DNA of 64,000 bases from Paraburkholderia caballeronis (lineage in GTDB: Bacteria; Pseudomonadota; Gammaproteobacteria; Burkholderiales; Burkholderiaceae): positions 2,046,001-2,110,000 of the forward strand of contig NZ_FNSR01000001.1 of NCBI RefSeq assembly GCF_900104845.1. The letters are read 5' to 3'. This document shows positions 1-15,672 of this stretch, in pieces. Each line of letters begins with the position of its first letter. The stretch's first letter is position 1. The notes under the pieces were generated by a model. The model was not told where the DNA came from, did not search any database, and was given only the letters and a program-made list of their open reading frames with translations. A program made the position numbers and the translations under genes.

Positions 1-9
1 ACCCAATAA

Positions 10-21
10 TCTGAATTCAGA
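10..21. promoter_or_regulatory. Palindromic operator, site 1 (TCTGAATTCAGA)
   Basis: A 12-bp perfect palindrome lies about 70 bp ahead of the aldolase gene. It directly follows AATAAT (5-10), a plausible -10 hexamer. The same core, CTGAATTCAG, recurs at 11747 and 11956, each time inside a promoter region. I infer an operator for the GntR protein encoded at 6403; the link to that regulator is not shown by the sequence. Confidence 0.6.
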
Positions 22-92
22 ATTTTTTGTGACGTGCCGATCGAGGCACGCTACCCGTTCAGATCGTCGACCGTCGTCCAGCCACCTATCCG

Positions 93-857
93 ATGCAAAA
101 CAGTCCTGAAGTTCACGACCTGCCGAATCCCAAGACCTTGCACGCTCTGTTCGCCGCCCGGCGGCGTCTGTCGTGCGCGTGGTTTTCGGTCGGCAGCGCG
201 ACCCTGTTCGAGATCGGCGTCGCCGCGCGGCCCGACCTCGCGGTGATCGATCGCCAGCACGGCCTGTGGGACCGCGCGTCGATGGAAGCCGCGATCGGGC
301 TCGCACGTTATCAACTGCCGGTCGTCGTGCGGGTTGCCGAGAATTCCGCGCATGCGATCGCCGAGGCGCTCGATGCGGGCGCGGCGTCCGTGCTCGTGCC
401 GCTCGTCGAAAGCGCGGAAGAGGCGAAGCGCGCCGTCTCGCACGGGCGTTATCCGCCGTTCGGCGCGCGCTCGGGCGGCGGCGTGCGGCCGTTGCTCGCC
501 GGCCCCGCGGCGATGAAGGCCGACGGCGAACGCGTGTCGATCGGCGTGATGATCGAGACGGTGGCGGGCGTCGAGCAGGTCGAGTCGATTGCGGCGGTGG
601 AAGGTCTCGGTTATCTGTTCGTCGGCACCGGCGACCTCGCGCTGTCGCGCGGCGACGCGCCCGGCGCGATCGCGCGCGACTGCGAACGCATCCTCGCCGC
701 CGCGCACGCTCGCGGTCTGCCGTGCGGGATCTTCACCGGCGACGAGGCCGATGCGCGCGCGCAACTGGCGCACGGCTTCGACTTCGCGGTCGCGGCCAAC
801 GACATCGACGTGGTGCGCGGCGGTTTCGAGCGCGCGGTCGCCGCGCTGCGCGCATGA
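93..857 (+). CDS. HpcH/HpaI-family class II aldolase
   Basis: 254 residues, the usual length for HpaI-type aldolases, which reversibly split 4-hydroxy-2-oxoacids into pyruvate (or a related oxoacid) and an aldehyde using a divalent metal. The catalytic His (H56 in IDRQHG) and Arg (R80 in VVVRV) are visible, as are the metal ligands E155 (IETVAG) and D181 (GTGDLALS). The residue before the His is Gln where E. coli HpaI has Glu, and the Arg-Gly loop is a divergent Gly-rich segment at 124-133, so the substrate probably differs from HpaI. It is the first gene of an operon with a FAD dehydrogenase and a peptide-type ABC transporter, behind the CTGAATTCAG operator. Cytoplasmic. Confidence 0.88.
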   Translation: MQNSPEVHDLPNPKTLHALFAARRRLSCAWFSVGSATLFEIGVAARPDLAVIDRQHGLWDRASMEAAIGLARYQLPVVVRVAENSAHAIAEALDAGAASVLVPLVESAEEAKRAVSHGRYPPFGARSGGGVRPLLAGPAAMKADGERVSIGVMIETVAGVEQVESIAAVEGLGYLFVGTGDLALSRGDAPGAIARDCERILAAAHARGLPCGIFTGDEADARAQLAHGFDFAVAANDIDVVRGGFERAVAALRA

Positions 858-867
858 GGGGCGAACG

Positions 868-2334
868 ATGAGCGAAGTTTCCAGCGGCGCGGTTCCGGCG
901 GCGCAAGGTTCGCCGGCCGACCTCGTCAGGCAGTTGCTCGACGCGCTCGGCGCGGACCTCGTGACGGCCGGCGCCGACCTCGGCACGCGCCGCCACTGCG
1001 ACTGGAGCGGCACGCCGGGCGCGGACCCGGTCGCGCTGATCCGGCCGCGCTCGACCGCCGACGTGTCGCGCGCGCTTGCGCTGTGCCACCGGCTCGGCCA
1101 GCCGGTCGTGATCCAGGGCGGGCTGACCGGCCTCGCGGGCGGCGCGAACCTGCGCGGCGGGGAAGTGGCGTTGAGCCTCGAACGGATGAGCGCGATCGAG
1201 GAGGTCGATCCGGTGTCCGGCACGATCACCGTGCAGGCGGGCGCGATCCTGCAACGCGTGCAGGAGGCCGCCGACGCGGCCGGCATGATGTTTCCGCTCG
1301 ATCTGGGCGCGCGCGGCAGCTGCACGATCGGCGGCAACCTCGCGACGAACGCGGGCGGCAACCGCGTGATCCGCTACGGGATGGCGCGCGAGCAGGTGCT
1401 CGGCATCGAGGCCGTGCTCGCGGACGGCACCGTGATCGGCGACATGCACAAGATGGTGAAGAACAACAGCGGCTACGACCTGAAGCAGTTGCTGGTCGGC
1501 AGCGAAGGCACGCTCGCGGTCATCACGCGGGCGACGCTGAAGCTCGCGCCGCGCCCGGCCGGGCTGCTGACCGCGTGGTGCGGGCTGCCCGACTATGCGT
1601 CGGTCACGCGGCTGCTGCACTACGCGCGCGCGCATCTGTCCGGCGGCGTGTCGGCGTTCGAGGTGATGTGGCCGAGTTATTACGACTACGTGCTCGAACA
1701 CGTGCGCGGGCTGCGCGCGCCGCTCGACACGCGCCATGCGTATTACGTGCTGCTCGAAAGCCCGGCGTCGGACGCGGAGCGCGACGCCGCCGGCTTCGAG
1801 GACGTGCTGGGCGAGATGCTCTCGGAAGGCGTGGTCGAGAACGCCTCGATCGCCAGCTCGAACGCGGACGCCGCGCGTTTCTGGGCGGTGCGCGACGCGC
1901 CGGCCGAGTTCCCGGTGCTGATGCCGGGGCTGATCGGCTTCGACATCGGTTTTTCGACCGCCGACATCGGCGCGGTCGCCGCGCAGTGCGAAACGATGCT
2001 GCACGCACGCTGGCCGGACATGACGACGCTGGTGTACGGCCATCTCGGCGACGGCAACCTGCACGTGATCGCGCATCTCGACGACGCGCCGCCCGACCTC
2101 GCGGAGCAGGTCGACGAGGCCGTCTACGACCTGACGCGCGCATGGCGCGGCTCGGTGTCCGCCGAGCACGGCATCGGCAGCAAGAAGCGCGCATACCTCG
2201 GCCATACGCGCGACGCCGGCGCGCGCCACGCGATGCACGCGATCAAGCGCGCGCTCGATCCGGCCAACCTGCTGAATCCGGGCAAGGTGCTCGAACCTGT
2301 TTCTCCGTCTGTCGATCTTCCGGGAGCGTCGTGA
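868..2334 (+). CDS. FAD-binding oxidoreductase, GlcD / D-2-hydroxyacid dehydrogenase type
   Basis: 488 residues from ATG 868, ten bases after the aldolase stop; an in-frame extension to 589 only overlaps the aldolase. It has the N-terminal PCMH-type FAD domain (about 55-235, with a GGNLATNAGGN stretch binding the cofactor) and a C-terminal FAD-oxidase domain with GHLGDGNLH and SAEHGIGSKK, both hallmarks of the GlcD/D-lactate/D-2-hydroxyglutarate dehydrogenase family. Such enzymes oxidise D-2-hydroxyacids to 2-oxoacids. Next to an HpaI-type aldolase it could make a 2-oxoacid for cleavage, or process a cleavage product; the order is inference. Confidence 0.88.
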   Translation: MSEVSSGAVPAAQGSPADLVRQLLDALGADLVTAGADLGTRRHCDWSGTPGADPVALIRPRSTADVSRALALCHRLGQPVVIQGGLTGLAGGANLRGGEVALSLERMSAIEEVDPVSGTITVQAGAILQRVQEAADAAGMMFPLDLGARGSCTIGGNLATNAGGNRVIRYGMAREQVLGIEAVLADGTVIGDMHKMVKNNSGYDLKQLLVGSEGTLAVITRATLKLAPRPAGLLTAWCGLPDYASVTRLLHYARAHLSGGVSAFEVMWPSYYDYVLEHVRGLRAPLDTRHAYYVLLESPASDAERDAAGFEDVLGEMLSEGVVENASIASSNADAARFWAVRDAPAEFPVLMPGLIGFDIGFSTADIGAVAAQCETMLHARWPDMTTLVYGHLGDGNLHVIAHLDDAPPDLAEQVDEAVYDLTRAWRGSVSAEHGIGSKKRAYLGHTRDAGARHAMHAIKRALDPANLLNPGKVLEPVSPSVDLPGAS

Positions 2335-3353
2335 TGCTGCGGCTCATTTCCACTGTCCTGTTGCGCCGGCTGGCGGCGGCGATTCCCACGCTGCTGATGC
2401 TGTCGCTGATCGTGTTCGTCGTGCTGCGGCTGATTCCGGCCGATCCGCTCGCGATGATGCTGCCGCCGAACGCGACGCCCGCCGACGCGGCCGCGCTGCG
2501 CCATCAACTGGGCCTCGACAAGCCGATTCCCGCGCAGTTCGGCATCTGGCTCGTGAACGCGCTGCATGGCGACTTCGGCGCGTCGATCTCGTTCCAGCAG
2601 CCGGTCGCGACGCTGATCGGCTCGACGCTGCCCGCGACGCTCGAACTGTGCCTGACCGCGCTCGCGCTGTCGCTCGTCATCAGCGTGCCGGGCGGCGTGC
2701 TCGCGTACTCGGTGGTCGAGCGGCGCGCCGAATTCCCGGTCGGGCTCGGCGTGGTGCTGATGCAGTCGGTGCCGTCGTTCCTGTGGGCGCTGCTGCTGAT
2801 CGCGCTGTTCGGCGTGTGGCTGCCGCTGCTGCCGTTCTCCGGCCGCGTCGGCGACGGCATTCCGATGCCGCACCTGACCGGCTTCCTGCTGGTGGACTTC
2901 GTGCTGAAGGGCGAATGGAGCGACTGGCTGAGCGCGGCGAGCCATCTCGTGCTGCCGTCGCTCGCGCTCGCGTTCGGCTTCGCGCCGCTCGTGATCCGCG
3001 TGCTGCGCTCCAGCCTGCTCGACCAGCGCAACGAGTCGTACGTCGGCGTCGCGCGGCTGCGCGGGCTGTCCGAGCGCCGCATCCTGTGGCGTCACATGCT
3101 GAAGAACGCCGCGCTGCCGGCGCTGACGATGATCGGCGTGCAGTTCGGTTTCCTGCTCGGCGGCGCGCTGCTCGTCGAGATGATCTTTTCGTTTCCCGGT
3201 GTCGGCAACCTGATGGTGCAGGCCGTGCGCAACAACGATCTGGTGCTGATCCAGGGCATCGCGGTCGTGTTCTGCGCACTGATGCTTGTCATCAACGCGG
3301 TCGTCGACACGCTGTACGTGATCATGAATCCGCGCCTGCGCAAGGCCGCGTGA
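2334..3353 (+). CDS. ABC transporter permease, DppB/OppB type
   Basis: 339-residue inner-membrane permease whose ATG shares one base with the preceding stop (TGATG); GTG at 2331 is an in-frame alternative. The N-terminal segment, the RVLRSSLLD loop and the EMIFSFPGVGNL stretch match DppB-type permeases (BPD_transp_1), with about six membrane segments. It forms the channel with the next gene and is driven by the fused ATPase at 4372. The operon lacks a binding protein; the family-5 protein at 13343, behind the same operator, is the natural candidate. Confidence 0.92.
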   Translation: MLRLISTVLLRRLAAAIPTLLMLSLIVFVVLRLIPADPLAMMLPPNATPADAAALRHQLGLDKPIPAQFGIWLVNALHGDFGASISFQQPVATLIGSTLPATLELCLTALALSLVISVPGGVLAYSVVERRAEFPVGLGVVLMQSVPSFLWALLLIALFGVWLPLLPFSGRVGDGIPMPHLTGFLLVDFVLKGEWSDWLSAASHLVLPSLALAFGFAPLVIRVLRSSLLDQRNESYVGVARLRGLSERRILWRHMLKNAALPALTMIGVQFGFLLGGALLVEMIFSFPGVGNLMVQAVRNNDLVLIQGIAVVFCALMLVINAVVDTLYVIMNPRLRKAA

Positions 3354-3370
3354 GCGATCGGAGCCTGCCC

Positions 3371-4369
3371 ATGTCCACGACCCCCACGACTTCCCCATCG
3401 CCTTTTTCGTCCAAGCCCGACCCCGAGACCCCGATGCCGCGCGATTCCGTGTCCGCCGAACCGGCCGAACCCACCGTTGCCGCCGGCCTTGCCGCCAGTC
3501 CGGCGCGGCGCGCGCGCCCGCGCATCGGGCGCAACCTGCGTTCGCTGAACCTGTGGCTCGGCGGCGCGATCGTGCTCGGCGTGGTGTTCTGCGCGCTGTT
3601 CGCGCCGTGGCTCGCGCCGCACGATCCGCTCGACCAGGACCTGCTGCACATGCTGACGCCGCCCGCGTGGATGAGCGGCGGCGACGCGGCGTTCCCGCTC
3701 GGCACCGACAGCCTCGGCCGCGACGTGCTGTCCCGGCTGCTGTACGGCAGCCGCGTCGCGCTGACGGTCGCGGTGATCGCGGCGTTCGGCGCGGGCCTCG
3801 TCGGCAGCGTGCTCGCGATCCTCGCCGGCTACTTCGGCGGCTGGGTCGATCGCGCCATCAGCTACCTCGTCGACCTGTGGATGTCGTTTCCGCCGGTGGT
3901 GCTGTCGCTGGTGCTGATGGTGAGCCTCGGCGTGGGCATCGACAACGTGATCCTGTCGATCGTGCTGGTGGACTGGACCCGCTTCTGCCGCGTGGTCCGC
4001 TCCGAGGTGATGGTGGTGCGCCAGCGCGACTACGTGCTCGCCGCGCAGCTGCTGAACCTGTCGCATCTGCGCATCATGCTGCGCGAGATCGTGCCGGCCG
4101 CGCTGCCGCTGATGATCACGCTGTTCTCGCTCGAAATGGGCGTCGCGATTACCGTCGAGGCGCTGCTCAGCTTCATCGGCCTCAGCGTGCCGGCCAACGT
4201 GACCGCGTGGGGCGTGATGATCGCGGACGCGCGCGTGTCGATGCACGAGGCGCCGACCGGGCTGCTGTTCCCGATGCTCGCGATCGTGATTACGGTGCTC
4301 GGCTGCAATCTGCTCGGCGACGGCCTGCGCGTCGCGCTCGATCCGCGCATGCGCGGCAGGGGGGAATGA
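3371..4369 (+). CDS. ABC transporter permease, DppC/OppC type
   Basis: 332 residues. An unusually long, Pro/Ser/Ala-rich cytoplasmic leader of about 55 residues precedes the first membrane segment; starting at the internal ATG 3434 would shorten it. The DppC signature HPLGTDSLGRDVLSR-like segment (FPLGTDSLGRDVLSR) is present, followed by the BPD_transp_1 domain with EALLSFIGLSVP near the end. It begins 17 bases after dppB-like and ends three bases before the ATPase start. Partner of the DppB-type permease. Confidence 0.92.
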   Translation: MSTTPTTSPSPFSSKPDPETPMPRDSVSAEPAEPTVAAGLAASPARRARPRIGRNLRSLNLWLGGAIVLGVVFCALFAPWLAPHDPLDQDLLHMLTPPAWMSGGDAAFPLGTDSLGRDVLSRLLYGSRVALTVAVIAAFGAGLVGSVLAILAGYFGGWVDRAISYLVDLWMSFPPVVLSLVLMVSLGVGIDNVILSIVLVDWTRFCRVVRSEVMVVRQRDYVLAAQLLNLSHLRIMLREIVPAALPLMITLFSLEMGVAITVEALLSFIGLSVPANVTAWGVMIADARVSMHEAPTGLLFPMLAIVITVLGCNLLGDGLRVALDPRMRGRGE

Positions 4370-4371
4370 CG

Positions 4372-6270
4372 ATGTACGGACTTCTTCACGAGGCGGCCAT
4401 TGATGGCGACGCCGCCGAACCGGTCCTCGCGCTCGACGGCGTGACGCTGACCGCGACCTTCGGCGCGCAGCCGGTCGCCGCGCTGCGCAACCTGCGGCTG
4501 TCGATCGGGCGCGGCAAGGTGCTCGGCGTCGTCGGCGAATCCGGCGCGGGCAAGAGCATGCTCGGGCGGCTGATCTCCGGCCTGCTGCCGGCGGGCTTCG
4601 ACGTGACGTCGGGTTCGATGCGCTTCGGCGGCCGCGACCTGCTGGCGATGCCGGCGCGCGAGCGCCGTGCGCTGCTCGGCCGGCAGATCGCGTTCGTGCC
4701 GCAGGAGCCGCTGACGGCGCTCGATCCGCTGTGGACGATCGGCCGCGCGTTCGACGAACACCTCGCGCGCATCGGCGTGCCGCCCGGCGAGCGCGCCGCG
4801 ACCGCGCTGCACGCGCTCGAATCCGTGCAGTTGCCGGTGCCGCAGCAGATGCTCGGGCGTTATCCGCATCAGCTGTCGGGCGGCCAGTGCCAGCGCGTGC
4901 TGATCGCGATGGCGTTCGCGAGCAACCCGGCGCTGCTGATCGCGGACGAACCGACCACCGCGCTCGACGTGCTGACGCAGACGCGCGTGATGACGATGCT
5001 CGCGGACCAGCAGCGCGAGCACGGCAGCGCGGTGCTGCTGATTACCCACGACCTGCGGCTGGCCGCGCACGTCTGCGACGAGATCGCGGTGATGTATGCG
5101 GGCGACCTGGTCGAATACGGCCCGGCGCGCGACGTGCTCGACGCGCCGCGCCATCCGTACACGCGCGCGCTCAAGTACGCGACGCCGGACCTGCAGGGGC
5201 CGCGCCGCCGGTTGCCGGTGCTGCCGCATCAGATGCCGGGGTTGTCCGCGCTCGCGGGGATCGCCGGCTGCCGGTTCGCGCCGCGCTGCCCGGTCGGCGA
5301 CCGCGCGTGCGCGGCGTCGCAGGCGGAGCGGGTCGCGCCGGACGGCCATCGCGTCGCGTGCGTCGACGCGTGCGAACACGCGGCCGTGAGCGACGACGAC
5401 ACGCCGTTGCCGCCGCTGCCGACGGCCATCGACGGCGAGCGGCCGGTCGCGGAGCTGCGCGAGGCGTCGCTCGTCTACACGAGCCGCAACGGGCTGTTCG
5501 GGCGCGGCAAGACGACGTTCGAAGCGGTCAAGCCGCTGTCGCTGCGGATCTTTCCCGGCGAGTTCGTCGGCATCGTCGGCGAGAGCGGCAGCGGCAAGAC
5601 GTCGGTCGCGCGGCTGCTGATGGGCATCGAGCCGCCGACCGACGGGCGCGTGCTGATCGGCGGCGAGGACGTGACGCATGGCGAGGTCGCGCGCGTGAGA
5701 CGCGCGCGCGAGCAGGTGCAGATCATCTTCCAGGACCCGCAGTCGGCGCTGAACCCGCGCCGCACGGTCGAGCGGCTGCTGACCCAGGCGCTGGAGGCCG
5801 CGGGCCTGCCGCCGCTGGACGTCGCCGCGCGGCTCGCGCGCGCGCAGGCCGTGCAGCGCGACGTCGGGCTGCCGGCCGACACGCTCGGCCGGTTCCCGAC
5901 CCAGCTGTCGGGCGGCCAGAAGCAGCGCGTGAACATCGGCCGCGCGTTGTGCGCGGCGCCGCAACTGATCGTCGCCGACGAGATCGTGTCGGGCCTCGAC
6001 GTGTCGGTGCAGGCGCAGATCCTGAACCTGCTGCTCGAACTGCGCCGCGAACGCCAGATCGCGCTGCTGCTGATCTCGCACGATCTCGCGGTGGTGCGTT
6101 ACCTGTGCAGCCGCGTGCTGGTGATGCGGCGCGGCGAGATCGTCGAACACGGCGCGACCGAGGACGTGTTCGCGTCGCCGCGCCATCCGTACACGAAGGC
6201 GCTGATCGACGCGGTGCCCGGCGACGCCGGCGTGCCGTGGCCGCCCGCGCCGCTGGAGGCGGCCGCGTAG
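4372..6270 (+). CDS. Fused double ATP-binding protein of the Dpp-type ABC transporter
   Basis: 632 residues holding two complete ABC ATPases, equivalent to DppD plus DppF in one chain. The first half has Walker A GESGAGKS, signature LSGGQCQ and Walker B LLIADEPT; the second has GESGSGKT, LSGGQKQ and LIVADEIVSGLD. Each half ends in the oligopeptide-type tail with HPYT; the first also has a CRFAPRC cysteine motif. ATG 4372 is chosen because the AGGGGGGA ribosome site ends about seven bases before it; ATG 4366 overlaps the previous stop but has no spacing. In the second half the usual Glu-Pro-Thr after the Walker B Asp is Glu-Ile-Val; the catalytic Glu is kept. Confidence 0.92.
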   Translation: MYGLLHEAAIDGDAAEPVLALDGVTLTATFGAQPVAALRNLRLSIGRGKVLGVVGESGAGKSMLGRLISGLLPAGFDVTSGSMRFGGRDLLAMPARERRALLGRQIAFVPQEPLTALDPLWTIGRAFDEHLARIGVPPGERAATALHALESVQLPVPQQMLGRYPHQLSGGQCQRVLIAMAFASNPALLIADEPTTALDVLTQTRVMTMLADQQREHGSAVLLITHDLRLAAHVCDEIAVMYAGDLVEYGPARDVLDAPRHPYTRALKYATPDLQGPRRRLPVLPHQMPGLSALAGIAGCRFAPRCPVGDRACAASQAERVAPDGHRVACVDACEHAAVSDDDTPLPPLPTAIDGERPVAELREASLVYTSRNGLFGRGKTTFEAVKPLSLRIFPGEFVGIVGESGSGKTSVARLLMGIEPPTDGRVLIGGEDVTHGEVARVRRAREQVQIIFQDPQSALNPRRTVERLLTQALEAAGLPPLDVAARLARAQAVQRDVGLPADTLGRFPTQLSGGQKQRVNIGRALCAAPQLIVADEIVSGLDVSVQAQILNLLLELRRERQIALLLISHDLAVVRYLCSRVLVMRRGEIVEHGATEDVFASPRHPYTKALIDAVPGDAGVPWPPAPLEAAA

Positions 6271-6325
6271 ACAGGGCGGCCCGCGCAGGGCGACCCGCGC
6301 CGGCGGGCGGGCCGGGCGCGGGCAC

Positions 6326-6346
6326 TACAATAAGCGGTTGCAACCG
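6326..6346 (+). promoter_or_regulatory. Candidate gntR promoter with CGGTTGCAACCG palindrome
   Basis: TACAAT (6326-6331) resembles a -10 hexamer and is followed after three bases by the perfect 12-bp palindrome CGGTTGCAACCG (6335-6346). This is 57 bp ahead of the gntR start. The position suits an autoregulatory operator, but the motif differs from the CTGAATTCAG sites. No convincing -35 is visible. Confidence 0.35.
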
Positions 6347-6402
6347 GCGGCCGCCGCGACGGCGGAACAGCAACCGGGAAAAGCATTGAACGGGAGAACA
6401 TC

Positions 6403-7095
6403 ATGACCACCGCCGAACCGACGGCCATCAAGCAACCGCGGCGCACGGCGCTGCGCCAGACGACGCTGATGGAGTCGGTCTATCAGGAGATCCTGGCGCG
6501 GCTGCAGTCGGGGCAGATCGGTCCCGACGACCGCGTGCTCGACTACGAGATCGCGAAGGAATTCGAATGCACGCGGATGCCGGTGCGCCAGGCGCTGCTG
6601 CGGCTCGTCAACGAGGGGTATCTGGTCGGCACGACGCGTGGTTTCGTCACGCCGGTGCTGACCGGCGAGGACGTGCGCGAGATCTTCGACGTGCGCCGCC
6701 TGCTCGAACCGAGCGCGGCGGCCGGCGCGGCCGCGGTGCTCACCGACGAGCAGATGGCCGCGATGAGCGCCGCGTACCGTAAATGCCGGCGCGGTTTCGA
6801 ACGCAAGGACATCGCGCTGATGACCGAAGCGAACGTCGAGTTCCGCGGCATCTGGCTCGAAGGCGTGCTGAATTCGCGGCTGAAAGGCACGATCCTGCGC
6901 TTCGCGGACCACGCGCGCCAGGTGCGGCACGGCACGATGACGAAACCCGGCACGCTGGAGCTGATCGTCGACGGAATGCAGGCGCTGCTGAAGGGCTTCA
7001 TGGAGCGCGACCCGGTGCAGGTGCGCGCGGCGACGCTCGCGTTCATCGACGACGCCGAGCAGCAGTATTTCCTGACCGTGGACGACGCAACCTGA
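6403..7095 (+). CDS. GntR-family transcriptional regulator (FCD/FadR-type)
   Basis: 230 residues. The N-terminal winged helix (about 20-85, with VYQEILARLQSG and EIAKEFECTRMPVRQAL) is a GntR DNA-binding domain; the helical C-terminal region (about 95-225) is an FCD-type ligand domain with metal/ligand His and Arg residues such as HARQVRHG. GGGAGAA lies a few bases before the ATG. The thiolase-like gene overlaps its stop by one base, so both are cotranscribed. It is the only regulator inside Region A and so the best candidate for binding CTGAATTCAG. Effector unknown, likely an acid or CoA ester of the pathway. Confidence 0.9.
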   Translation: MTTAEPTAIKQPRRTALRQTTLMESVYQEILARLQSGQIGPDDRVLDYEIAKEFECTRMPVRQALLRLVNEGYLVGTTRGFVTPVLTGEDVREIFDVRRLLEPSAAAGAAAVLTDEQMAAMSAAYRKCRRGFERKDIALMTEANVEFRGIWLEGVLNSRLKGTILRFADHARQVRHGTMTKPGTLELIVDGMQALLKGFMERDPVQVRAATLAFIDDAEQQYFLTVDDAT

Positions 7096-8300
7096 TGGCC
7101 GTCCGACCCGGCGCGGCGATGCAGGACTTCGCGGGCGTGGCGATCGTCGCCGCCGTCGAAGTGCCGTACCGCCGCCATCCGCCGCCCGGCACCACGACGG
7201 CGGGCCTGCTCGCCGCGGCGCTGACCGATGCGCTCGGCGCGGCCGGGCTCGATGCAAACGAGGTGGACGGGCTCGGCGTCGCGTCGTTCACGCTGCCGCC
7301 CGATCACGCGATCGACTTCGCATGGCGCGCGGGACTGCGGGTGCGCTGGTGCATGGACGACTGCCACGGCGGCGCGAGCGGCGTGAACCTGCTTCAGCAC
7401 GCGGCGCGCGCGATCCAGTCCGGCGACGCGGAAATCGTCGTGCTCGTCAGCGGCGATCATTTCGAGGCCGCCGATTTCACTGCGCTCGTCGAGAACTACA
7501 ACGCGACCACGCGCGCGTTTCTGCGGCCGCTGCGCACCGGCGGCCCGAATCCGCTGTTCGCGATGCTGACGCAGCGCCAGATGGCGGCCACCGGCCTCAC
7601 GCGCGACGACTATGCGGCGCTGTGCATCGCGCAGCGCGACTGGGCTGTGCGCAACCCGCGCGCGGTCTATCGCGAGGCGCTCACGCGCGACGCGTATTTC
7701 GCCGCGCCGATGGTGGCCGAGCCGCTGTGCCGCCTCGATTGCGTACCGGTCGTGTCCGGCGCGAACGCGCTCGTGCTCGCGCCGGCGACGCATCGTTGCG
7801 CGCGCGCGGCGCCGGTGGCGATCCGCGCGCTGCGCGCGTCGTACAACTTCGATCAGCAGCACGGCGACGGTCTCGTGACCGGTCTCGCGTCGATTCGCGA
7901 CGCGCTGTGGCGCGACGCGCGGTTGTCGCCGCAACAGATGGATATCGTGTCCGTCTACGACGACTATCCGGCGATGATCGTCGCGCAGCTTGCGGACCTC
8001 GGTTTTGCCGATGGCGAGAGTGGCGACGGTTTGCGCTCGCTGATTCACGACCGCATTGCACCGCGCGAACTAGCCGTCAATCCGTCCGGCGGCCAGTTGT
8101 CGGTCGGGCAGGCGGGCGCGGCGGGCGGCATGCACGGTCTCGTCGAGGCGGTCGCGCAGTTGCGCGGCGAGGCGGGCGAACGGCAGGTCGAGGGCGCGCG
8201 GTTCGCGGTCGTCAGCGGTTATGGGATGGTGCAGTACCGCTACGGAATGTGCGCGAACGCGGTCGTGCTGGAACGCGGGGAGGGGCCATGGCGGCGTTGA
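7095..8300 (+). CDS. Thiolase-superfamily protein, probably not a classical thiolase
   Basis: 401 residues starting at the ATG that shares a base with the gntR stop. The fold signatures of SCP2-type thiolase-like proteins are recognisable: a DDCHGGASG segment where the nucleophilic Cys normally sits, and NPSGG near residue 330. The catalytic GHP motif that usually follows NPSGG reads GQA, and the late CxG motif is CAN, so the His and second Cys expected of a true thiolase are missing. With its DUF35 partner it resembles the thiolase-like/Zn-ribbon pairs seen in sterol and acyl-CoA side-chain catabolism, where the dimer acts as an aldolase or acyl-CoA binding unit. Exact reaction unknown. Confidence 0.75.
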   Translation: MAVRPGAAMQDFAGVAIVAAVEVPYRRHPPPGTTTAGLLAAALTDALGAAGLDANEVDGLGVASFTLPPDHAIDFAWRAGLRVRWCMDDCHGGASGVNLLQHAARAIQSGDAEIVVLVSGDHFEAADFTALVENYNATTRAFLRPLRTGGPNPLFAMLTQRQMAATGLTRDDYAALCIAQRDWAVRNPRAVYREALTRDAYFAAPMVAEPLCRLDCVPVVSGANALVLAPATHRCARAAPVAIRALRASYNFDQQHGDGLVTGLASIRDALWRDARLSPQQMDIVSVYDDYPAMIVAQLADLGFADGESGDGLRSLIHDRIAPRELAVNPSGGQLSVGQAGAAGGMHGLVEAVAQLRGEAGERQVEGARFAVVSGYGMVQYRYGMCANAVVLERGEGPWRR

Positions 8301-8590
8301 CCGTGTTCGAATGCGCCGCGTGCGGCCACCGCGAGTTTCCGCGGCCGCTGCTGTGTCCCGCCTGTGGCGGGATGCAGTTCGTCGCAGCGGATGCGGGCCG
8401 CGGACGCGTCGAGGAAGTCACGGCGCTGCATCGGCGGTCCGCTGACGGCGACGAACTCGCGTGGCTCGCGACCGTGCTCACTGGCGCGGGACCGCGCGTG
8501 ATCGCGCGGCTCGACGATGCGCCCGGGCAGGGCGCTGTCGTCGCGCTGCGGATCGACGCCGACGGCGCGATCCGCGCGGAGCCGGTCTAG
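8288..8590 (+). CDS. DUF35-type Zn-ribbon / OB-fold protein, thiolase partner
   Basis: 100 residues, overlapping the thiolase-like gene by 13 bp, with GGGGAGGGG just before its ATG. Four cysteines in CAACGH and CPACGG form a rubredoxin-like Zn ribbon at residues 9-27, followed by a short OB fold. DUF35 proteins bind thiolase-like partners and shape acyl-CoA binding; the overlapping gene order fits an obligate complex with the upstream product. Confidence 0.82.
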   Translation: MAALTVFECAACGHREFPRPLLCPACGGMQFVAADAGRGRVEEVTALHRRSADGDELAWLATVLTGAGPRVIARLDDAPGQGAVVALRIDADGAIRAEPV

Positions 8591-8854
8591 CGGCGGTGCG
8601 TCCGTAGCGGCGATGACCGGCGTCGTGTGCGAAGGCGGCCGGATCGGGCCGGGGAATCGGGACGATAGGCGCGATATCGACACGGTAGCGGCACGATATC
8701 GGCATGGCACGCGTAGGCGCCGCCGTCCGCTTCTCCCGGCGACGGCTTGCTTGCCGTCATCTTCGCAAGCCCGTTTTTCAGCGGTCGGCGGCGACCGCGA
8801 ACCTACCACGATCGCCGCCGGCAGCGGCCGCACGCGACGCGGCCCGCCGCCCGC
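8591..8854. other. Convergent intergenic region with hairpin and paired CGATATCG sites
   Basis: 264 bp between the plus-strand DUF35 gene and the minus-strand ligase. It contains two copies of the palindrome CGATATCG (8672-8679 and 8694-8701) exactly 22 bp apart, a 6-bp hairpin GACGGC/GCCGTC (8741-8758) and a 7-bp hairpin GCGGTCG/CGACCGC with a four-base loop (8781-8798). The hairpins may end transcription, though neither has a following T-run in the right direction. No coding sequence is apparent. Confidence 0.4.
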
Positions 8855-10513
8855 TCAATGCGTCGCCACGCGCCGCTTGAATTCGCGCAGATCGAAGCAC
8901 AGCGGCGCGTTCAACGGATCGTTGCCGAGCGCCGCGAGTTGCGTCTTCTGCACCTTGTTGGTCGACGTGACCGGCAGCGTTTCGACGAACGATACGTAAC
9001 CGGGCGCCTTGAAATACGCGAGCCGGTCGAGACACCACGCCTGCAACGCGCGCGCCGTCTGCGCGTCGCGCGCCACGCCCGGCGACACGATCACGCAGGC
9101 CATCACTTCCTCGTCGCGCAGCGGATCGGGCGCGGCGATCACCGCCGTCTGCCGCACGTCCGGATGATCGAGCAGGCACGCTTCGACCTCCAGCGCGGCG
9201 ATGTTCTCGCCGGAGCGGCGAATCACGTTCTTCTGCCGGTCCACGAAATGCAGGCTGCCGTCGTCGCCTTCGCGCACGACGTCGCCGGTATGGAACCAGC
9301 CGCCGCGCCACGCTGCTTCGGTGGTGGCCTCGTCCTTCAGATACCCGCGAAAGAAACCGAGCCTCGGTTCGGCGCCCGCGCGGCGCACCAGCAGATGGCC
9401 GGGCGTGCCGCGCGGCACGTCGCGATCGTGCTCGTCCACCAGCCGCACTTCGATCTCCGGGCGCGGGCGGCCGAAGCAGCGCGAGCCGACGTGCCGCGGC
9501 TCGCGGCTCGACGCGATCACCGCGCCGCCGCCGGTCTCGGTCATCGCCCAGCCCTCGATCAGCGGGAAGCCGAAACGCTGTTCGAACACGAGTTGATGGC
9601 GTGGATCGACGTTCGCGCCGTAGCCGAACCGCACGTGGTGCGGCGGCGACCCGCCGTCGAGCGACAGCAGGATCGCCGGCATCACGCCGAGGTAATGGAC
9701 GATCGTCGCGCCGCTCGCGGCGACGTCAGCCCACCAGTCGCGCGGATGGAAGCGGTCGAGCTGGATCACGCAGCCGCCGGACAGCACCATCGCCATCGTC
9801 GAGCACGCGAGCGCGTTCATGTGAAAGAGCGGCAGCGGCGTAATCAGCCGCTCGACGCCGGGCCGCACTTCGCACAGGCCGCCTTCGCTGAGATACAGCT
9901 CGCCGATCGACACGAAGTAGCGGTTGTCGAGGATGCAGCCCTTCGGCTTGCCGGTCGTGCCCGACGTGTAGAGGATCGCGCATTCGTCGTCGAGGCTCGC
10001 GCGATGCGAGCCGTCCGTCGCGACGTCGGCCGCGCGCGGCAGCGGCCCGGCTTCGGCGTCGGCAACAGCGAGCGGCACTTGCAGGTCCGGCGTGTCGAGC
10101 GCCGCGCGCAACAGCGGCAGCGTGCGTTCGACGCCGACCGCGAGCGCGATCTCGCTGTGCTGCGCGACATAGGCGATCTCGTGCGGCCGCGAGTCGGGAT
10201 TCAGCGGCACCACGCCGACGCCGAGCGCGTTCAGCGCGAAGAAATGGAAGAAGAACGCCGGCCGGTTTTCGAGCAGCAGCGCGACGCGCATGCCCGCGCG
10301 ATAACCCGCTTCGCGATAGCGCACGATCTGCCGCTCGATCTCCGCGAGCGTCTGCGCGTAGGTGAGCGTCAACGCGTCGGAGGCATCGTCGGCGGACGCC
10401 GCGTAACGGCGCTGCGCGGAAGCCGGAATGTGCAGGAAGTCGTGATGCGGATGACGGGCCGCGGTTCGGGCGAAGGCTGCGTAAGGCGAAACAGGTCGAC
10501 TATCGGAAATCAT
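8855..10513 (-). CDS. AMP-forming acyl-CoA ligase (FadD-like)
   Basis: 552 residues, the full length of an ANL-superfamily ligase that activates a carboxylic acid to its CoA ester with ATP. The P-loop-like YTSGTTGKPKG, the GWAMTETGGG segment, HTGDVVREGDDG (ADP/AMP binding), the KNVIRRSGENIAA hinge and the C-terminal TSTNKVQK with the catalytic Lys are all present. It lies 91 bp downstream of the flavin monooxygenase gene on the same strand and probably shares its promoter. Activation of a ring-cleavage or amide-cleavage acid is a reasonable role, since a thiolase-like pair is encoded nearby. Substrate not predictable. Confidence 0.9.
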   Translation of the reverse strand: MISDSRPVSPYAAFARTAARHPHHDFLHIPASAQRRYAASADDASDALTLTYAQTLAEIERQIVRYREAGYRAGMRVALLLENRPAFFFHFFALNALGVGVVPLNPDSRPHEIAYVAQHSEIALAVGVERTLPLLRAALDTPDLQVPLAVADAEAGPLPRAADVATDGSHRASLDDECAILYTSGTTGKPKGCILDNRYFVSIGELYLSEGGLCEVRPGVERLITPLPLFHMNALACSTMAMVLSGGCVIQLDRFHPRDWWADVAASGATIVHYLGVMPAILLSLDGGSPPHHVRFGYGANVDPRHQLVFEQRFGFPLIEGWAMTETGGGAVIASSREPRHVGSRCFGRPRPEIEVRLVDEHDRDVPRGTPGHLLVRRAGAEPRLGFFRGYLKDEATTEAAWRGGWFHTGDVVREGDDGSLHFVDRQKNVIRRSGENIAALEVEACLLDHPDVRQTAVIAAPDPLRDEEVMACVIVSPGVARDAQTARALQAWCLDRLAYFKAPGYVSFVETLPVTSTNKVQKTQLAALGNDPLNAPLCFDLREFKRRVATH

Positions 10514-10580
10514 GGCGAACGGAAATCGAAGATTGACGGGCGCGGCGGCGTGCGCCGCCGGCCCGGGTCGGAAAGAACGG

Positions 10581-10611
10581 GATCAAGCGGGGATCAAGCG
10601 ACGATCAAGCG
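10581..10611. repeat. Three 11-bp tandem repeats containing GATCAAGCG
   Basis: GATCAAGCG begins at 10581, 10592 and 10603, a period of 11 bp. The third copy contains the TGA stop codon (minus strand) of the flavin monooxygenase gene, so the array looks like a duplication of the end of that gene into the spacer before the ligase. Confidence 0.6.
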
Positions 10612-11705
10612 GCGCGCAAGCCGGCTTCACGCATCAGCGGCAGCACGCGCTCGCAGAAGAATGGCAGTTCGTCCGCGTAGTTGACGAACGACAGCGCCGC
10701 GCCGGCGAAGCCGCAGGCGTGCATCGCGGCGAGCCGCCCGACGATCTGCTCCGGCGTGCCGACGAGCGGAAAACTGCCGGTGCCGGCCGCAAAGCGTTGC
10801 CGGTACTCGATGAACGCGCGGTCCTCATGGCTGCTGCTGAAGCCTTTTTTCTGCCGCACGTGATAGTCGAGCGCGGCTTCGTCGGTGTATTCGACGGAAT
10901 AGCGGTGGTAGTAGTCGAGCGCCTCCTGTTCGGTCGCGCGGCAGACCACGTGCGCGACGGTATAGACGCCCAGTTCGCGGCCCGCCTGCGCGCCGCGCTC
11001 GCGGATGTCACGCACGTGCTCGCGGCCCGCGTCGAGGTCGGTGAACGTCGTGAACAGGTAATCGCAGTGACGCGCGGCGAAGTCGCGGCCCGGCGCGCCG
11101 AACGCGGCGTTCATCGTGACCGGGCGCGGGCTCTGCAACGAGACCGGCCGCGAAATCGCGCCCTTCAGCCGGTAGAACTCGCCGTCGAAGTCGAACGGTT
11201 CCGCGCTCGTGTAGAGCCGCGTCAGGATCTCGCTCCACTCGGCGGCCTGACGGTACGCGTCGTGTTCCAGCGTGACGCCGAACATGTCGAATTCATCCGG
11301 ATTCCAGCCGCACACGATGTTCAGTCCCGCGCGGCCGTGGCTCACGTGATCGATCGTGGCCAGCGCCTTTGCCGCATAGACCGGATGCACGAGCGGCACA
11401 TGCACGGTCGAGAACAGCGCGATGCGCCGGGTGAGCGCGGCCAGCGCCGCCGCGAACGTGAACGTCTCGAACGAATGCTCGCGCACGTGCGTCGTGCCGC
11501 CGAAGCCGCGCCAGCGCGCGATCGGCAGGAAAAAGTCGAGTCCGCCGGTATCGGCGGCGATGGCCGCGCGCTGCACGTCGTCCCAGCCGGCGCGCCACTG
11601 CTCGGGCACCGTCGTGAAGGTCAGGCCGCGGTCGGCGTTCGCGGCGAACACGCCGACCTTGAACGGATGCGGGTCGCGCATCGGGTTGGCGGGGGCAGGC
11701 GTCAC
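10605..11705 (-). CDS. LLM-class flavin-dependent monooxygenase, RutA-like
   Basis: 366 residues from GTG 11705, which has an AGAGAGG ribosome site eight bases upstream; a longer TTG start at 11741 would run into the operator. The bacterial-luciferase-like barrel shows RWRGFGG, the ATIDHVSHGRAGLN strand and CGWNPDEF, closely following RutA, the pyrimidine ring-opening oxygenase. RutA-group enzymes use FMN-peroxide chemistry to break C-N or similar bonds and need a separate flavin reductase. None is adjacent; the flavin reductase at 40367 is far away. The neighbouring acyl-CoA ligase and the short amidase in Region B suit an amide or N-heterocycle substrate, which is inference. Confidence 0.85.
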   Translation of the reverse strand: MTPAPANPMRDPHPFKVGVFAANADRGLTFTTVPEQWRAGWDDVQRAAIAADTGGLDFFLPIARWRGFGGTTHVREHSFETFTFAAALAALTRRIALFSTVHVPLVHPVYAAKALATIDHVSHGRAGLNIVCGWNPDEFDMFGVTLEHDAYRQAAEWSEILTRLYTSAEPFDFDGEFYRLKGAISRPVSLQSPRPVTMNAAFGAPGRDFAARHCDYLFTTFTDLDAGREHVRDIRERGAQAGRELGVYTVAHVVCRATEQEALDYYHRYSVEYTDEAALDYHVRQKKGFSSSHEDRAFIEYRQRFAAGTGSFPLVGTPEQIVGRLAAMHACGFAGAALSFVNYADELPFFCERVLPLMREAGLRAA

Positions 11706-11746
11706 AGGGGCGGCCTCTCTGGCGATGGATTGTCGATACAAGGATA

Positions 11747-11756
11747 CTGAATTCAG
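11747..11756. promoter_or_regulatory. Palindromic operator, site 2 (CTGAATTCAG)
   Basis: The 10-bp core sits between the -35 (TTGACA, 11772-11767) and -10 (CAGTAT, 11749-11744) of the minus-strand monooxygenase promoter and overlaps the -10. Binding here would block RNA polymerase. Flanks are less symmetrical than at sites 1 and 3. Confidence 0.6.
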
Positions 11757-11954
11757 AAAATTGTCGTGTCAAGCTGCTCGACGGGAGTCGTGGTGAAGCA
11801 ATCCGTTCATCCGGTGCAAGGTTCGCCGCCGACGCTCGCAAAAAAGGCGAGGAGAAAAAGCGGTCAACTTGCGATGCAGCATGGAAGTGGGGTTTTTCAT
11901 TACCAGTGCACACAATTTTGACGCGTTCTTGACGTGGGTTTTTTACTCCCATAA

Positions 11955-11966
11955 TCTGAATTCAGA
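11955..11966. promoter_or_regulatory. Palindromic operator, site 3 (TCTGAATTCAGA)
   Basis: Identical to site 1 over the whole 12-bp palindrome and over the flanking ATAAT and AAT. It abuts the candidate -10 CATAAT (11950-11955) of the porin operon, 130 bp before the porin start. The conserved arrangement of -10 plus operator at sites 1 and 3 supports one repressor controlling both operons. Confidence 0.62.
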
Positions 11967-12095
11967 ATGTTGATTGAGGTGAACATTCTGGCGTCAGGAT
12001 GACCGTCTTGGAGCGGTGCCCCGACGCACGCAGCAGGGTGAAGTCCCATTGATAAACCAGTCGCTCAACCCTTCGACCGCTTAACGGAATCCCAC

Positions 12096-13217
12096 GTGAA
12101 AACTCCTCTTGTCACCGCCTCGCTCGCCGCGCTTTGCGCGAGCGGCTCTGTCTGGGCTCAAAGCAGCGTTACGTTGTACGGCATCATCGACGAAGGCCTG
12201 ACCTTCTCGAACAATCAGCTTGGCGAAAAATCCTGGCAGATGCAAAGCGGCATCTCGCAGGGCAGCCGCTGGGGCCTGCTCGGCTCCGAGGATCTCGGCG
12301 GCGGGCTGTCCGCGGTCTTCCGGCTCGAAAACGGCTTCGACATCAATTCGGGCAAGCTGCTGCAACAGGGCCGCGAGTTCGGCCGCGGCGCGTACGTCGG
12401 GCTGTCGAGCAACACCTACGGCACGCTGACGTTCGGCCGCCAGAACGAACTGATGGGCGACTACGTCGGCCAGTACACCGCGAACGGCAACTGGGGCATT
12501 TTGTTCCCGCACCCGGGCGACCTCGACAACACCGGCATCGACTACCGGGTGAACAACGCGGTGCGCTATGCGTCGCCGGTGATTCACGGCGTGCAGGCCG
12601 GCGCGGTGTACGGGTTCGGCAACGTGGCGGGCGAGCTGAACCGCGACGCGGTCAAGTCGTTCGGGCTCAAGTATTCGGGCGGCCCGCTCGCGCTCGCGGC
12701 CGCGTTCACGACGATCGACCACCCGGCCGAGGCGGTGCCGGAAGGGGTGTGGACGTCGACCAACGCGATCGACGGCAACTACGGCCTCGCGGCGTCGAAG
12801 TACCAGTCGTTCGGCTTCGCGGGGCAGTACACGTTCGGCGCCGCGAAGGTCGCGGCGATCTACACGAACACGCGTTTCATGGGCCTCGACCCGACGGTCG
12901 GCGCGAACATCGGCGGCCACGTGACGTTCCAGATCTTCGAACTGGTGGCCGGTTATTTCATCACCCCCGCGCTGCAGCTGGGCACCGGCTACAGCTACAC
13001 CGAAGGCAACGTGTCGGCCACGTCGCAGAAGCCGAAGTACCACAACGTCGATGCGATCGCCGACTACTTCCTGTCGAAGCGCACCGACGCGTATCTGCAG
13101 GCGACGTGGATGCACGCGGCCGGCGACGCGCAGTACGCCGATCTCGCGCCGGTGCTGCAACGCTCCAGCACGTCGAACCAGATCGAAGTGCGGCTGGGGC
13201 TGCGCCATCGATTCTGA
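12096..13217 (+). CDS. Outer-membrane general porin (Gram-negative porin family)
   Basis: 373 residues beginning at GTG 12096. A cleavable signal peptide ends at VWAQ (residue 22), followed by SSVTLYGIIDEGL, the first strand of Burkholderiales trimeric porins; GLRHRF ends the barrel with the expected C-terminal Phe. RWGLLGSEDLGGGLSAVFRLE is the typical second hairpin region. It probably lets the pathway substrate through the outer membrane, since it leads an operon with a periplasmic binding protein and lies behind operator site 3. Confidence 0.93.
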   Translation: MKTPLVTASLAALCASGSVWAQSSVTLYGIIDEGLTFSNNQLGEKSWQMQSGISQGSRWGLLGSEDLGGGLSAVFRLENGFDINSGKLLQQGREFGRGAYVGLSSNTYGTLTFGRQNELMGDYVGQYTANGNWGILFPHPGDLDNTGIDYRVNNAVRYASPVIHGVQAGAVYGFGNVAGELNRDAVKSFGLKYSGGPLALAAAFTTIDHPAEAVPEGVWTSTNAIDGNYGLAASKYQSFGFAGQYTFGAAKVAAIYTNTRFMGLDPTVGANIGGHVTFQIFELVAGYFITPALQLGTGYSYTEGNVSATSQKPKYHNVDAIADYFLSKRTDAYLQATWMHAAGDAQYADLAPVLQRSSTSNQIEVRLGLRHRF

Positions 13218-13342: not shown

Positions 13343-14899
13343 ATGGACAGTTACGAGATCGACATGAAGCGCCGCCAGCTGCTGCTGGGCGCGCTCGCGG
13401 CCGGCGCGGGCGGGCTGCTGCCGTGGGAGCGGGCGCTCGCGCAGGGCCATCCGGCCGACCAGGTTCTGAACATCGCGTACATCTCGGACGTGCCGACGTG
13501 GGACCCGACGGCGATCACCGTGCCGCAGGCGCAGTCCATCTACACGACGGTGTTCGATTCGCCGCTGCGTTATTCGCCGAAGCTCGTGCTCGAAGGGCGC
13601 CAGATCTCCGCATGGAAGTGGCAGGACAAGAACGCGCAGCGCCTCGAAGTGACGCTGCGCGACGACATCCTGTTTCACGACGGCTCGAAGCTGACGACCG
13701 CCGACCTGAAGTACAGCCTGCACGACCGGCCGTCGGCCGATCACAAGCTCGCGGTCGGCGGGATGTTCCAGACGCTGAAGGACGTCGAGATCGTGTCGCC
13801 GACGCGCGCGGTGCTGGTTTACAGCAAGCCGACGCCGGCCGCGCCGATCTATCTCGCGTTTCTCGCGGGTTACATCGTGCCGAAGGCGTACATCGAGAAG
13901 GTCGGCATGGACGGTTTCCTCGCGAAGCCGGTCGGCGCGGGTCCGTACCGGCTGGTCGACTATCAGCGCGGCTCGCGCATCGTGCTGGAGGCATTCGACA
14001 AGTACTGGGGCGGCACGCCGGCGATCCGCCACGTGACGTTCGAGGTCGCGACCGAGCCGTCGGCGCGCGTCGCCGCGGTGGAGTCGGGCCGCGCGGGCGT
14101 CGCCGTGCAGATTCCGCTGCGCGAGGCGCAGCGGCTCGCGAGCGTGCCCGGCATTACGACGAAGATCTATCCGTACAGCGAGATCTACATGCTGCGGATG
14201 CCGAACTACGTGAAGCCGTTCGACGACGAGAACGTGCGCGCGGCGATGCATTATGCGATCGACACCGCCGCGTTGTCGAAGGCGTTTTACGGCGGCATCG
14301 CGCGGCCGCTGTCGGTGACGGCGACGCCGGGCTCGGCGGCCGACGTGCCGGGCTTCAGGTTTCCGTACGATCCGCAGCGCGCGATCGCCGCGCTCGCGAA
14401 GTCCGGCTACGGGCCGAACAAGCCGGTCCGCGTGCCGTTCCTGACGACGAACGGCACCTTCCCGAGCGACTACGACATGGCGCGCGCGATCGCCGGCATG
14501 TGGCAGCGCGTCGGCATCCAGGCGGACCTCACGCAGACCACGATGGCGAAGGTGATCAGCGAAATCCAGGCGACCAAGATGAGCGGCGTGCTGCTGTACA
14601 GCTGGGCCAACGCGACCGGCGACCCCGAGAACTACACCGGGCGCATTCTCGATCCGCGGCTGCGCTTTTCCGCATGGAAGGACGACGCGCTCGCGCCGCG
14701 CGTCGAGGCGCTGATGACCGAGGTGGACGAGGACAAGCGGATGGCCGGTTATCGCGCGCTGAGCCAGGAGGCGTCGGAGAAGTCGTGGGTCGTGCCGCTG
14801 CTGCAGGCGGTCACGACGATTGCGTACCGCTCGGACGTCGACGTCAAGATTTTCGACAGCGGCTACATCCTGCCGGTCGACTACAGGCTCAAGGGATGA
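13343..14899 (+). CDS. Periplasmic substrate-binding protein, family 5 (peptide/Dpp type)
   Basis: 518 residues with an N-terminal export signal containing KRRQLLLGALAAG, a twin-arginine-like pattern, and AxA cleavage near ERALAQ. The mature protein has the family-5 features VFDSPLRYSP and the VTLRDDILFHDGSKLTTADLKYS segment found in DppA/OppA-like proteins. GGAGG precedes the ATG. The matching permeases and ATPase are 7-11 kb upstream behind an identical operator, so this is likely the binding component of that transporter. Ligand may be a small modified amide or acid rather than a peptide. Confidence 0.9.
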   Translation: MDSYEIDMKRRQLLLGALAAGAGGLLPWERALAQGHPADQVLNIAYISDVPTWDPTAITVPQAQSIYTTVFDSPLRYSPKLVLEGRQISAWKWQDKNAQRLEVTLRDDILFHDGSKLTTADLKYSLHDRPSADHKLAVGGMFQTLKDVEIVSPTRAVLVYSKPTPAAPIYLAFLAGYIVPKAYIEKVGMDGFLAKPVGAGPYRLVDYQRGSRIVLEAFDKYWGGTPAIRHVTFEVATEPSARVAAVESGRAGVAVQIPLREAQRLASVPGITTKIYPYSEIYMLRMPNYVKPFDDENVRAAMHYAIDTAALSKAFYGGIARPLSVTATPGSAADVPGFRFPYDPQRAIAALAKSGYGPNKPVRVPFLTTNGTFPSDYDMARAIAGMWQRVGIQADLTQTTMAKVISEIQATKMSGVLLYSWANATGDPENYTGRILDPRLRFSAWKDDALAPRVEALMTEVDEDKRMAGYRALSQEASEKSWVVPLLQAVTTIAYRSDVDVKIFDSGYILPVDYRLKG

Positions 14900-14923
14900 C
14901 CGGTTTTCGTGGAGACACATGCG

Positions 14924-15649
14924 ATGCGGATTGAAGATTCGATTGCCTTCGTGTCGGGGGCGAACCGCGGCGTCGGCGCGGGGTTCGTCGCCGGGCTGCT
15001 CGCGCGGGGCGCGCGCAAGGTGTACGCCGGGATGCGCGACGCCGATGCCGCGCGCTTCGACGACCCGCGCGTGGTGCCAGTGCCGCTCGACGTCACGGCG
15101 CCGGCGCAGGTGGCGCAGGCCGCCGCATTGGCCGGCGACGTCACGCTGCTGATCAACAACGCCGGCATCAACCGGCTCGAACGCGTGGCCGGGCCGCGCG
15201 ACCCGGGCGCCGCGCGCGCCGAGATGGAGGTGAACTATTTCGGCACGCTGGAGATGTGCCGCGCGTTCGCGCCGGCGCTGACGCGCAACGGCGGCGCGCT
15301 CGTCAACATGCTGTCGATTCTCGCGCGGGTCGCGCTGCCGTCGATGGGCTCGTTATGCGCGTCGAAGGCCGCCGCGCTGCGGATGACCGAGGGCGTGCGC
15401 GCGGAACTGGCCGGGCGCGGCGTGCGCGTGCTGGCCGTGCTGCCCGGCGCGATCGACACCGACATGAGCCGCGATTTTCCGCCGCCGAAACTGGCGGTCG
15501 CGGAGGTCGTCGATGCGGTATTCTCGGCGCTCGAAGCGGACCCGGGCGGCGCGGACGACGTCTATGTCGGCGCGATGGCCGAGGGCGTCGCGGCGGGGCT
15601 CGCCGCCGACCGCGCCGCCGTGCTCGCGCAGTTCGCGGCTTATCTGTAA
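14924..15649 (+). CDS. SDR-family protein lacking the catalytic tyrosine
   Basis: 241 residues from ATG 14924 (GGAGA eight bases upstream; GTG 14909 is in frame). It has the Rossmann SGANRGVG nucleotide motif and LLINNAGIN. Ser131 is in the usual place, but the YxxxK motif reads LCASK, with Leu144 where the catalytic Tyr belongs and Lys148 kept. Without that Tyr the normal hydride-transfer mechanism is impaired, so it may be a binding protein, a dehydratase-like variant or an SDR using another acid. It is cotranscribed with the binding protein and the hydrolase, with 23-24 bp gaps. Confidence 0.82.
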   Translation: MRIEDSIAFVSGANRGVGAGFVAGLLARGARKVYAGMRDADAARFDDPRVVPVPLDVTAPAQVAQAAALAGDVTLLINNAGINRLERVAGPRDPGAARAEMEVNYFGTLEMCRAFAPALTRNGGALVNMLSILARVALPSMGSLCASKAAALRMTEGVRAELAGRGVRVLAVLPGAIDTDMSRDFPPPKLAVAEVVDAVFSALEADPGGADDVYVGAMAEGVAAGLAADRAAVLAQFAAYL

Positions 15650-15672
15650 CGACTTTTCGCCAGGAGACAACG

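Follow-up and report, generated by a model that had tools for sequence, protein, structure and literature searches.

The best precedent for the system described here is, by analogy, Atu1419 of Agrobacterium fabrum, an FCD repressor of the VanR group that controls hydroxycinnamate degradation. According to the published account (PMC7797058), its 10-bp palindromes overlap the -10 box or sit between the -35 and -10 boxes, guanine 3 of the palindrome is read by an arginine of the recognition helix, and two palindromes 190 bp apart are looped by a tetramer. In this work, we have analysed computationally a stretch of 64,000 nucleotides of the Paraburkholderia caballeronis genome (C1:2046001-2110000 of 7.1 Mb; the window), in which a 10-mer palindrome, CTGAATTCAG, lies at the promoters of a catabolic gene cluster that also encodes a GntR/FCD protein (6403-7095). 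Our results make it highly likely that TTCTGAATTCAGAA, with CTGAATTCAG as its core, is the operator of this protein, which represses the operons from it. Both systems have an FCD-type GntR protein and 10-bp palindromes that overlap the -10 box or lie between it and the -35 box, with guanine at position 3; this guanine is read in Atu1419 by the arginine to which R58 corresponds here. In both, two palindromes are spaced by roughly 200 bp (190 bp in Atu1419, 209 bp for our sites D and E). They differ in that the palindrome of Atu1419, ATGTATACAT, has a GT/AC core, in their target genes, and in the effector domain, which holds Zn in Atu1419, whereas here two corresponding histidines look changed (R148 and F214).

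The original prediction had placed the palindrome at three promoters of a dispersed regulon, with no other copy at a promoter. Exact matches are present at 11-20, 11747-11756 and 11956-11965 (sites C, D and E), as it had claimed, and within the 64,000 nucleotides there is no other exact copy, nor did a one-mismatch scan for CTGAATTCAG find any further place. Just upstream of the window, however, a 14-mer scan of the genome revealed two further identical sites, A at C1:2040858 (about -5142; negative coordinates lie upstream of the window start, in window numbering) and B at C1:2045386 (about -614), which brings the exact sites to five instead of three. An imperfect sixth, the half-perfect copy GAATTCAGAATTA, precedes the divergent gene of an FMN dehydrogenase (L005 10750-10762, about -5251 to -5239) and is common to the home genome and Paraburkholderia silvatlantica. 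Sites C and E, said to be identical over a 17-mer, are so across the 18-mer ATAATCTGAATTCAGAAT. The presence of the palindrome at these places is not a chance event: 0.04 exact copies would be expected in the window, and none of 100 shuffles reached three. It is the exact copies that carry this signal, because with one mismatch the expectation is already 0.77 and 5 of 100 shuffles reach three. In the whole genome (three contigs) there are seven exact copies, of which five fall within 17.1 kb and the remaining two inside open reading frames; we therefore describe a compact, contiguous locus, and the dispersed regulon is ruled out for the home genome. Near-matches at C1:1617098 and C1:2138251 (L006, L007) were set aside, as no homologue of a cluster protein lies within about 5 kb of either.

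To describe the promoters we collected all exact cores of the home cluster and of the 13 loci to which the GntR protein had led, 12 of which have an exact core (L026 has none), and allowed TTGAC or T-any-GACA as the -35 pattern, all promoters being predicted from sequence. Each of the 43 cores stands at one of two fixed offsets from the -35 box, with a 17-bp spacer, and overlaps the predicted -10 box, so that the overlap of operator and promoter typical of the Atu1419-like FCD catabolic repressors is found at all of them; a protein bound there should consequently block the polymerase. In the more frequent arrangement (34/43), TTGACG-N17-TAATCT (or TATTCT, TACTCT), the palindrome begins in the final two letters of the -10 box, and two of these promoters have a variant -35 box, TGGACA at site A and TTGACT in L030. 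In the other nine, of the site D type, the arrangement is TTGACA-N17-CAGTAT, and the palindrome ends in the first three letters of the -10 box. Thus, at site C (7-22, plus strand) the -10 box TAATCT occupies 7-12 and the operator ATCTGAATTCAGAA 9-22, with its core at 11-20, and the -35 box TTGACG lies at about -16 to -11, outside the window. The promoter of site E (11929-11967, plus strand) has TTGACG at 11929-11934, TAATCT at 11952-11957 and the operator at 11954-11967 (core 11956-11965). For both sites an (A/C)ATAAT box ahead of the palindrome had been proposed as the -10; the 17-bp spacer from TTGACG gives TAATCT, two bases downstream, which the palindrome overlaps. The placement of the second site between TTGACA and the -10 box was confirmed on the minus strand, where the promoter of site D (11744-11772) has TTGACA at 11772-11767, a 17-bp spacer and CAGTAT at 11749-11744, overlapped by the core at 11747-11756.

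Where sites are paired in divergent regions, their spacing is 208-209, 420-422, 147-148, 189 or 162 bp, corresponding to 19.8-19.9, 40.0-40.2, 14.0-14.1, 18.0 and 15.4 turns of 10.5 bp; sites D and E of the window (11747-11965) are separated by 209 bp, or 19.9 turns. The spacing is near to whole turns in four of the five classes, which are too few to claim DNA looping. Sites B and C, 565-655 bp apart, show whole turns only in part (53.8, 59.3, 62.4).

Conservation of the motif in front of orthologous operons, on which the original prediction had been staked, was found: the sites precede the orthologues in P. silvatlantica, the closest of the relatives found to share the cluster (its GntR protein is 93% identical), in Caballeronia and Robbsia, and also, with fewer target genes, in Herbaspirillum. 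In L019, L021 and L023-L025, as in the home genome, site D is followed by the monooxygenase gene; it is kept directly before the ligase gene in L018, L020 and L022, where no luciferase-like monooxygenase gene was found. Across nine loci, the two longest invariant runs of the D/E intergenic region are the two operators (17 nt each), followed by one run of 8 nt and then by both -35 boxes (7 nt each). The operator is likewise the longest invariant run in the alignments of site B (12 nt, nine rows) and site C (14 nt, 11 rows). In L026 (1-20687), from a metagenome-assembled genome of a symbiont and at the same contig position as G337, the matches to the oxidase, importer and ligase are in pieces, the operators carry mismatches and gntR is uninterrupted.

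The association of site and regulator was further explored in 398 Burkholderiaceae genomes, 30 of which have a close relative of the window GntR/FCD protein (E up to 1e-40). Nineteen genomes contain the promoter-flanked 18-mer ATAWTCTGAATTCAGAAT, all of them among these 30 and none among the 368 others, and 35 contain the bare 14-mer palindrome WTCTGAATTCAGAW, namely 25 of the 30 with gntR and 10 of the 368 without it. Fisher tests give 4e-25 for the 18-mer and 8e-27 for the 14-mer, which are not real probabilities, as the genomes are often close kin. In relatives at 57-67% GntR identity, most cluster genes were not found nearby, and gntR, the HpcH aldolase, a distant porin and the palindrome are what is usually shared; the palindrome is found just before gntR in L091, L103, L105 and L106, and in the distant loci L096 and L107 the genes of the monooxygenase (73%), the EthD protein and the oxidase are retained as well. 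Among selected genes of L091, L092, L096, L103 and L110 there are an amino acid permease, aminotransferases, a kynureninase-like enzyme, an indolepyruvate-oxidoreductase-type pair and a cyclase, the selection varying between the loci, and these sets are possibly uncharacterised amino-acid-type breakdown clusters. A second target locus, unlinked to gntR and on another contig, was seen only in G056 (L099, C1:218000-236000): no gntR lies beside it, it has genes for a binding protein, an EthD protein, the 155-aa protein and a porin, and its operators, at 7747 and 10186, stand in front of the binding-protein/EthD and the porin genes. That the site accompanies gntR while the other genes change is the stronger argument for the GntR protein as the regulator. 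The original proposals that one repressor serves the three units of the window, and that it is the GntR protein at 6403, are thus well supported by comparative genomics, through the co-occurrence and the conservation of the recognition helix described below.

Several observations weigh against this assignment. The 13-locus sample was gathered through the GntR protein itself, and 12 of its loci match genomes of the 398 set by contig position; because of this overlap, and since many genomes are close kin, the co-occurrence counts are not independent. The palindrome also arises by chance, as is seen from the 10 genomes that have it but not gntR; in seven of these genomes, inspected over about 5 kb around the copy, there was no close cluster homologue, and two distant matches had 23% and 25% identity. 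Five of the 30 gntR genomes lack the 14-mer: G213 and G330 have an exact core between the aldolase and gntR genes, G397 and G023 have one-mismatch cores, and G337 corresponds in contig position to the broken L026 cluster, from which the decay of its sites was read. In G086 the 14-mer and gntR are on different contigs, both near contig ends, and in G379 the 14-mer is on a different contig from gntR, inside an open frame, and the 19 kb surrounding its gntR showed no site. In the three relatives examined, site A is imperfect (GTGAATTCAG in L112 and L113, GTGAATACAG in L111). Finally, the palindrome lacks the usual GT/AC core of the GntR family (TKGT/ACMA).

This core is CTGA/TCAG, with A in place of the T of GT. 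Since a survey of the FadR subfamily (PMC4494728) lists exceptions to the TKGT/ACMA consensus among GntR proteins, a core without GT/AC is compatible with membership of the family. In that survey the operators resemble ours in being even-length palindromes with guanine at the same position, and the proteins in having arginine at position 38 and proline at position 40 of the helix-turn-helix (HTH); they differ from the present case, which has no GT/AC dinucleotides and a tyrosine for the frequent arginine at HTH 28 (ungapped numbering). It states that a proline at position 40 avoids, and an arginine at position 28 prefers, G or C beside the guanine; in ungapped numbering after its Table 1, these positions are P60 and Y48 here, and the base beside the guanine is T. 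By analogy with Atu1419 and FadR, the guanine at core position 3 would be contacted by the matching recognition-helix arginine, R58. Over 44 rows, duplicates of the same genomes included, the recognition helix is nearly invariant and R58 is invariant; relatives with about 60% identity also retain the helix. The sole row with threonine at both M59 and P60 is L089, from G379, which has no nearby site; L090, which has the site, carries threonine at M59 only.

The protein consists of an N-terminal GntR winged HTH (PF00392, 40.6 bits, cut-off 27) and a C-terminal FCD domain (PF07729, 61.5 bits, cut-off 24.3). FCD domains with a metal site have three metal-binding histidines. When the protein is aligned by profile to 7xp0, R148 and F214 fall where 7xp0 has histidines, so that the protein may have lost the metal site that many FCD domains possess. 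PhnR of Burkholderia (TIGR03338) is its best NCBIfam match, and membership was rejected at 62 bits against a family cut-off of 271.5. The McbR protein of E. coli is distant from the window GntR protein and regulates other genes. It is the best solved relative of the profile (PDB 4p9f; winged HTH and start of the FCD domain aligned, 57.9 bits) and also has an arginine at the R148 position. The literature matches listed for CTGAATTCAG include no title on a GntR operator, in a search that mostly did not reach subscription papers, so that we do not claim absence from print; among the matches listed for TGAATTCA with GntR, no title is on the subject.

We infer the following scheme, in which binding, repression and the extents of the operons are predicted, as are release by an inducer and the nature of this inducer. 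Without inducer, a GntR dimer, or a dimer of dimers, would occupy the palindrome over the -10 box and block RNA polymerase at operons C (aldolase, oxidase, importer, gntR), D (monooxygenase, ligase) and E (porin, binding protein, dehydrogenase, hydrolase) of the window, and at two promoters upstream of it, A (class II aldolase) and B (155-aa protein, no family match). The imported compound or its breakdown product, probably an organic acid, would free the repressor, and uptake and catabolism would be induced together. The protein is very probably the repressor of the cluster. It probably also represses its own operon: gntR closes operon C, separated from the ATPase gene by 132 bp, and would thus be autoregulated. 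The peptide/nickel-type importer is split, with the permeases and ATPase behind site C and the binding protein behind site E, so that one operator would unite their control.

Could another regulator bind these sites? The home genome has 31 FCD matches and the operator is not of the canonical GntR-family type, which would suit an unlinked regulator, for example another of these FCD proteins. Such a regulator is improbable, as the palindrome tracks this particular gntR over the 398 genomes, the co-occurrence having been computed for it, and directly precedes it in several distant relatives. It is also conceivable that the GntR protein binds the sites and activates, or both activates and represses, since some FCD proteins are reported to be activators (CitO, FadR); we consider this quite improbable because each of the 43 sites extends into the -10 box, and a protein bound in this way should impede the polymerase. 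Another candidate is a LysR-type protein whose gene (-4254 to -3295) belongs to the cluster and precedes the window; those Paraburkholderia and Caballeronia clusters whose stretch reaches that far have it too (L018, L020, L022, L026, L111-L115). However, the fetched stretches of L027-L030 showed no LysR homologue, and neither did those of L091, L092, L095, L097, L098, L100, L101, L105, L106 and L110, all of which have the site, although some stretches may end too early; L096 and L103 have LysR matches of only 43% and 41%. The usual LysR site is T-N11-A, which the palindrome does not resemble. With the same proviso about stretch ends, this protein was rejected as the binder for missing linkage, and its involvement is very improbable. 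Lastly, that the palindrome is a mere promoter element or chance repeat with no dedicated regulator has a negligible probability, for while it does overlap promoter elements, its side of the -10 box differs between the two promoter types, no shuffle gave three exact copies, five of the seven copies of the 7.1-Mb genome are at this locus, and in L026 it is mismatched where the catabolic genes are broken.

We return to repression by the GntR protein and to the genes that it would control, whose assignment by family searches gives enzyme classes only and indicates no substrate. Operon C, on the plus strand, would begin with an HpcH/HpaI-family aldolase gene (93-857; PF03328, 79.6 bits), followed by genes for a GlcD-like FAD-linked oxidase (913-2334; PF02913, PF01565), two ABC importer permeases of the DppB/NikB type (2400-3353; PF00528) and the DppC/NikC type (3500-4369; PF00528) and a double importer ATPase (4414-6270; PF00005 twice, oligo_HPY twice), the start codons of these four not being fixed, and by gntR (6403-7095). 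Behind it, on the same strand, lie genes for a thiolase-like protein (7095-8300; PF22691) and a small zinc-ribbon-like partner (8288-8590; a weak zf-ChsH2 match below the cut-off). Operon D, on the minus strand, would comprise first a luciferase-like (SfnG/RutA-like) flavin monooxygenase gene (10605-11741; PF00296, below the NCBIfam SfnG and RutA cut-offs) and second an AMP-forming acyl-CoA ligase gene (8855-10513; PF00501). Operon E, on the plus strand, would contain genes for a porin (12096-13217; PF13609), the importer solute-binding protein (SBP_bac_5; 13343-14899; PF00496), a short-chain dehydrogenase (14909-15649; PF00106) and a dienelactone-hydrolase-family protein with a weak SnoaL-like tail (15643-16911; PF01738). 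At 59960-59993, the window also holds a short 9-bp tandem repeat of 3.8 copies.

Upstream of the window, site A lies between the genes of the FMN-dependent hydroxyacid dehydrogenase (-6498 to -5269, minus strand) and the class II aldolase (-5109 to -4321), at the promoter of the latter. After the LysR-type gene (-4254 to -3295, minus strand) come those of an HsaA-like flavin monooxygenase (ending at -2013), an HpaC-like flavin reductase (-2009 to -1476) and an EthD-type protein (from about -1395, minus strand); no exact site was found in front of the monooxygenase/reductase pair or of the LysR gene. Site B precedes the gene of the 155-aa protein, which lies between sites B and C; an SRPBCC label for this protein was dropped, as it has no Pfam match. 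A sigma-54 (RpoN) gene is situated a few kb upstream of the cluster, outside the window (L005 5577-7292, minus strand). From the genes of the distant relatives one may guess that the substrate is amino-acid-derived or aromatic.

What do these results mean for the family? As a kind of system, this is an ordinary local catabolic repressor, and we probably have here a new regulon of a known kind, whose local FCD-type catabolic repressor has a non-canonical operator and probably regulates itself. The analysis links a regulator without an assigned role to an exact operator and to about twenty neighbouring genes for uptake and breakdown, and therefore the substrate can be sought with a simple reporter. 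The operator is a well-conserved exception to the GT/AC rule of the GntR proteins, and the natural variants of the recognition helix can test the reading of bases by residues. For regulon annotation in Paraburkholderia and Caballeronia the result is usable at once. A broader view, which we put forward only tentatively and as a whole, would be that of an uncharacterised FCD-GntR clade with a fixed non-canonical operator (CTGA/TCAG for TKGT/ACMA) and an effector pocket probably without the usual metal site, re-used for differing gene sets in the Burkholderiaceae and perhaps looping DNA between paired sites as a tetramer. Operator and promoter geometry would be rigid in the closer relatives, with the importer and oxygenases found here against an amino-acid permease, a kynureninase-like enzyme and an indolepyruvate oxidoreductase elsewhere. 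If this is true, the clade would mark breakdown pathways for related, perhaps amino-acid-derived, compounds.

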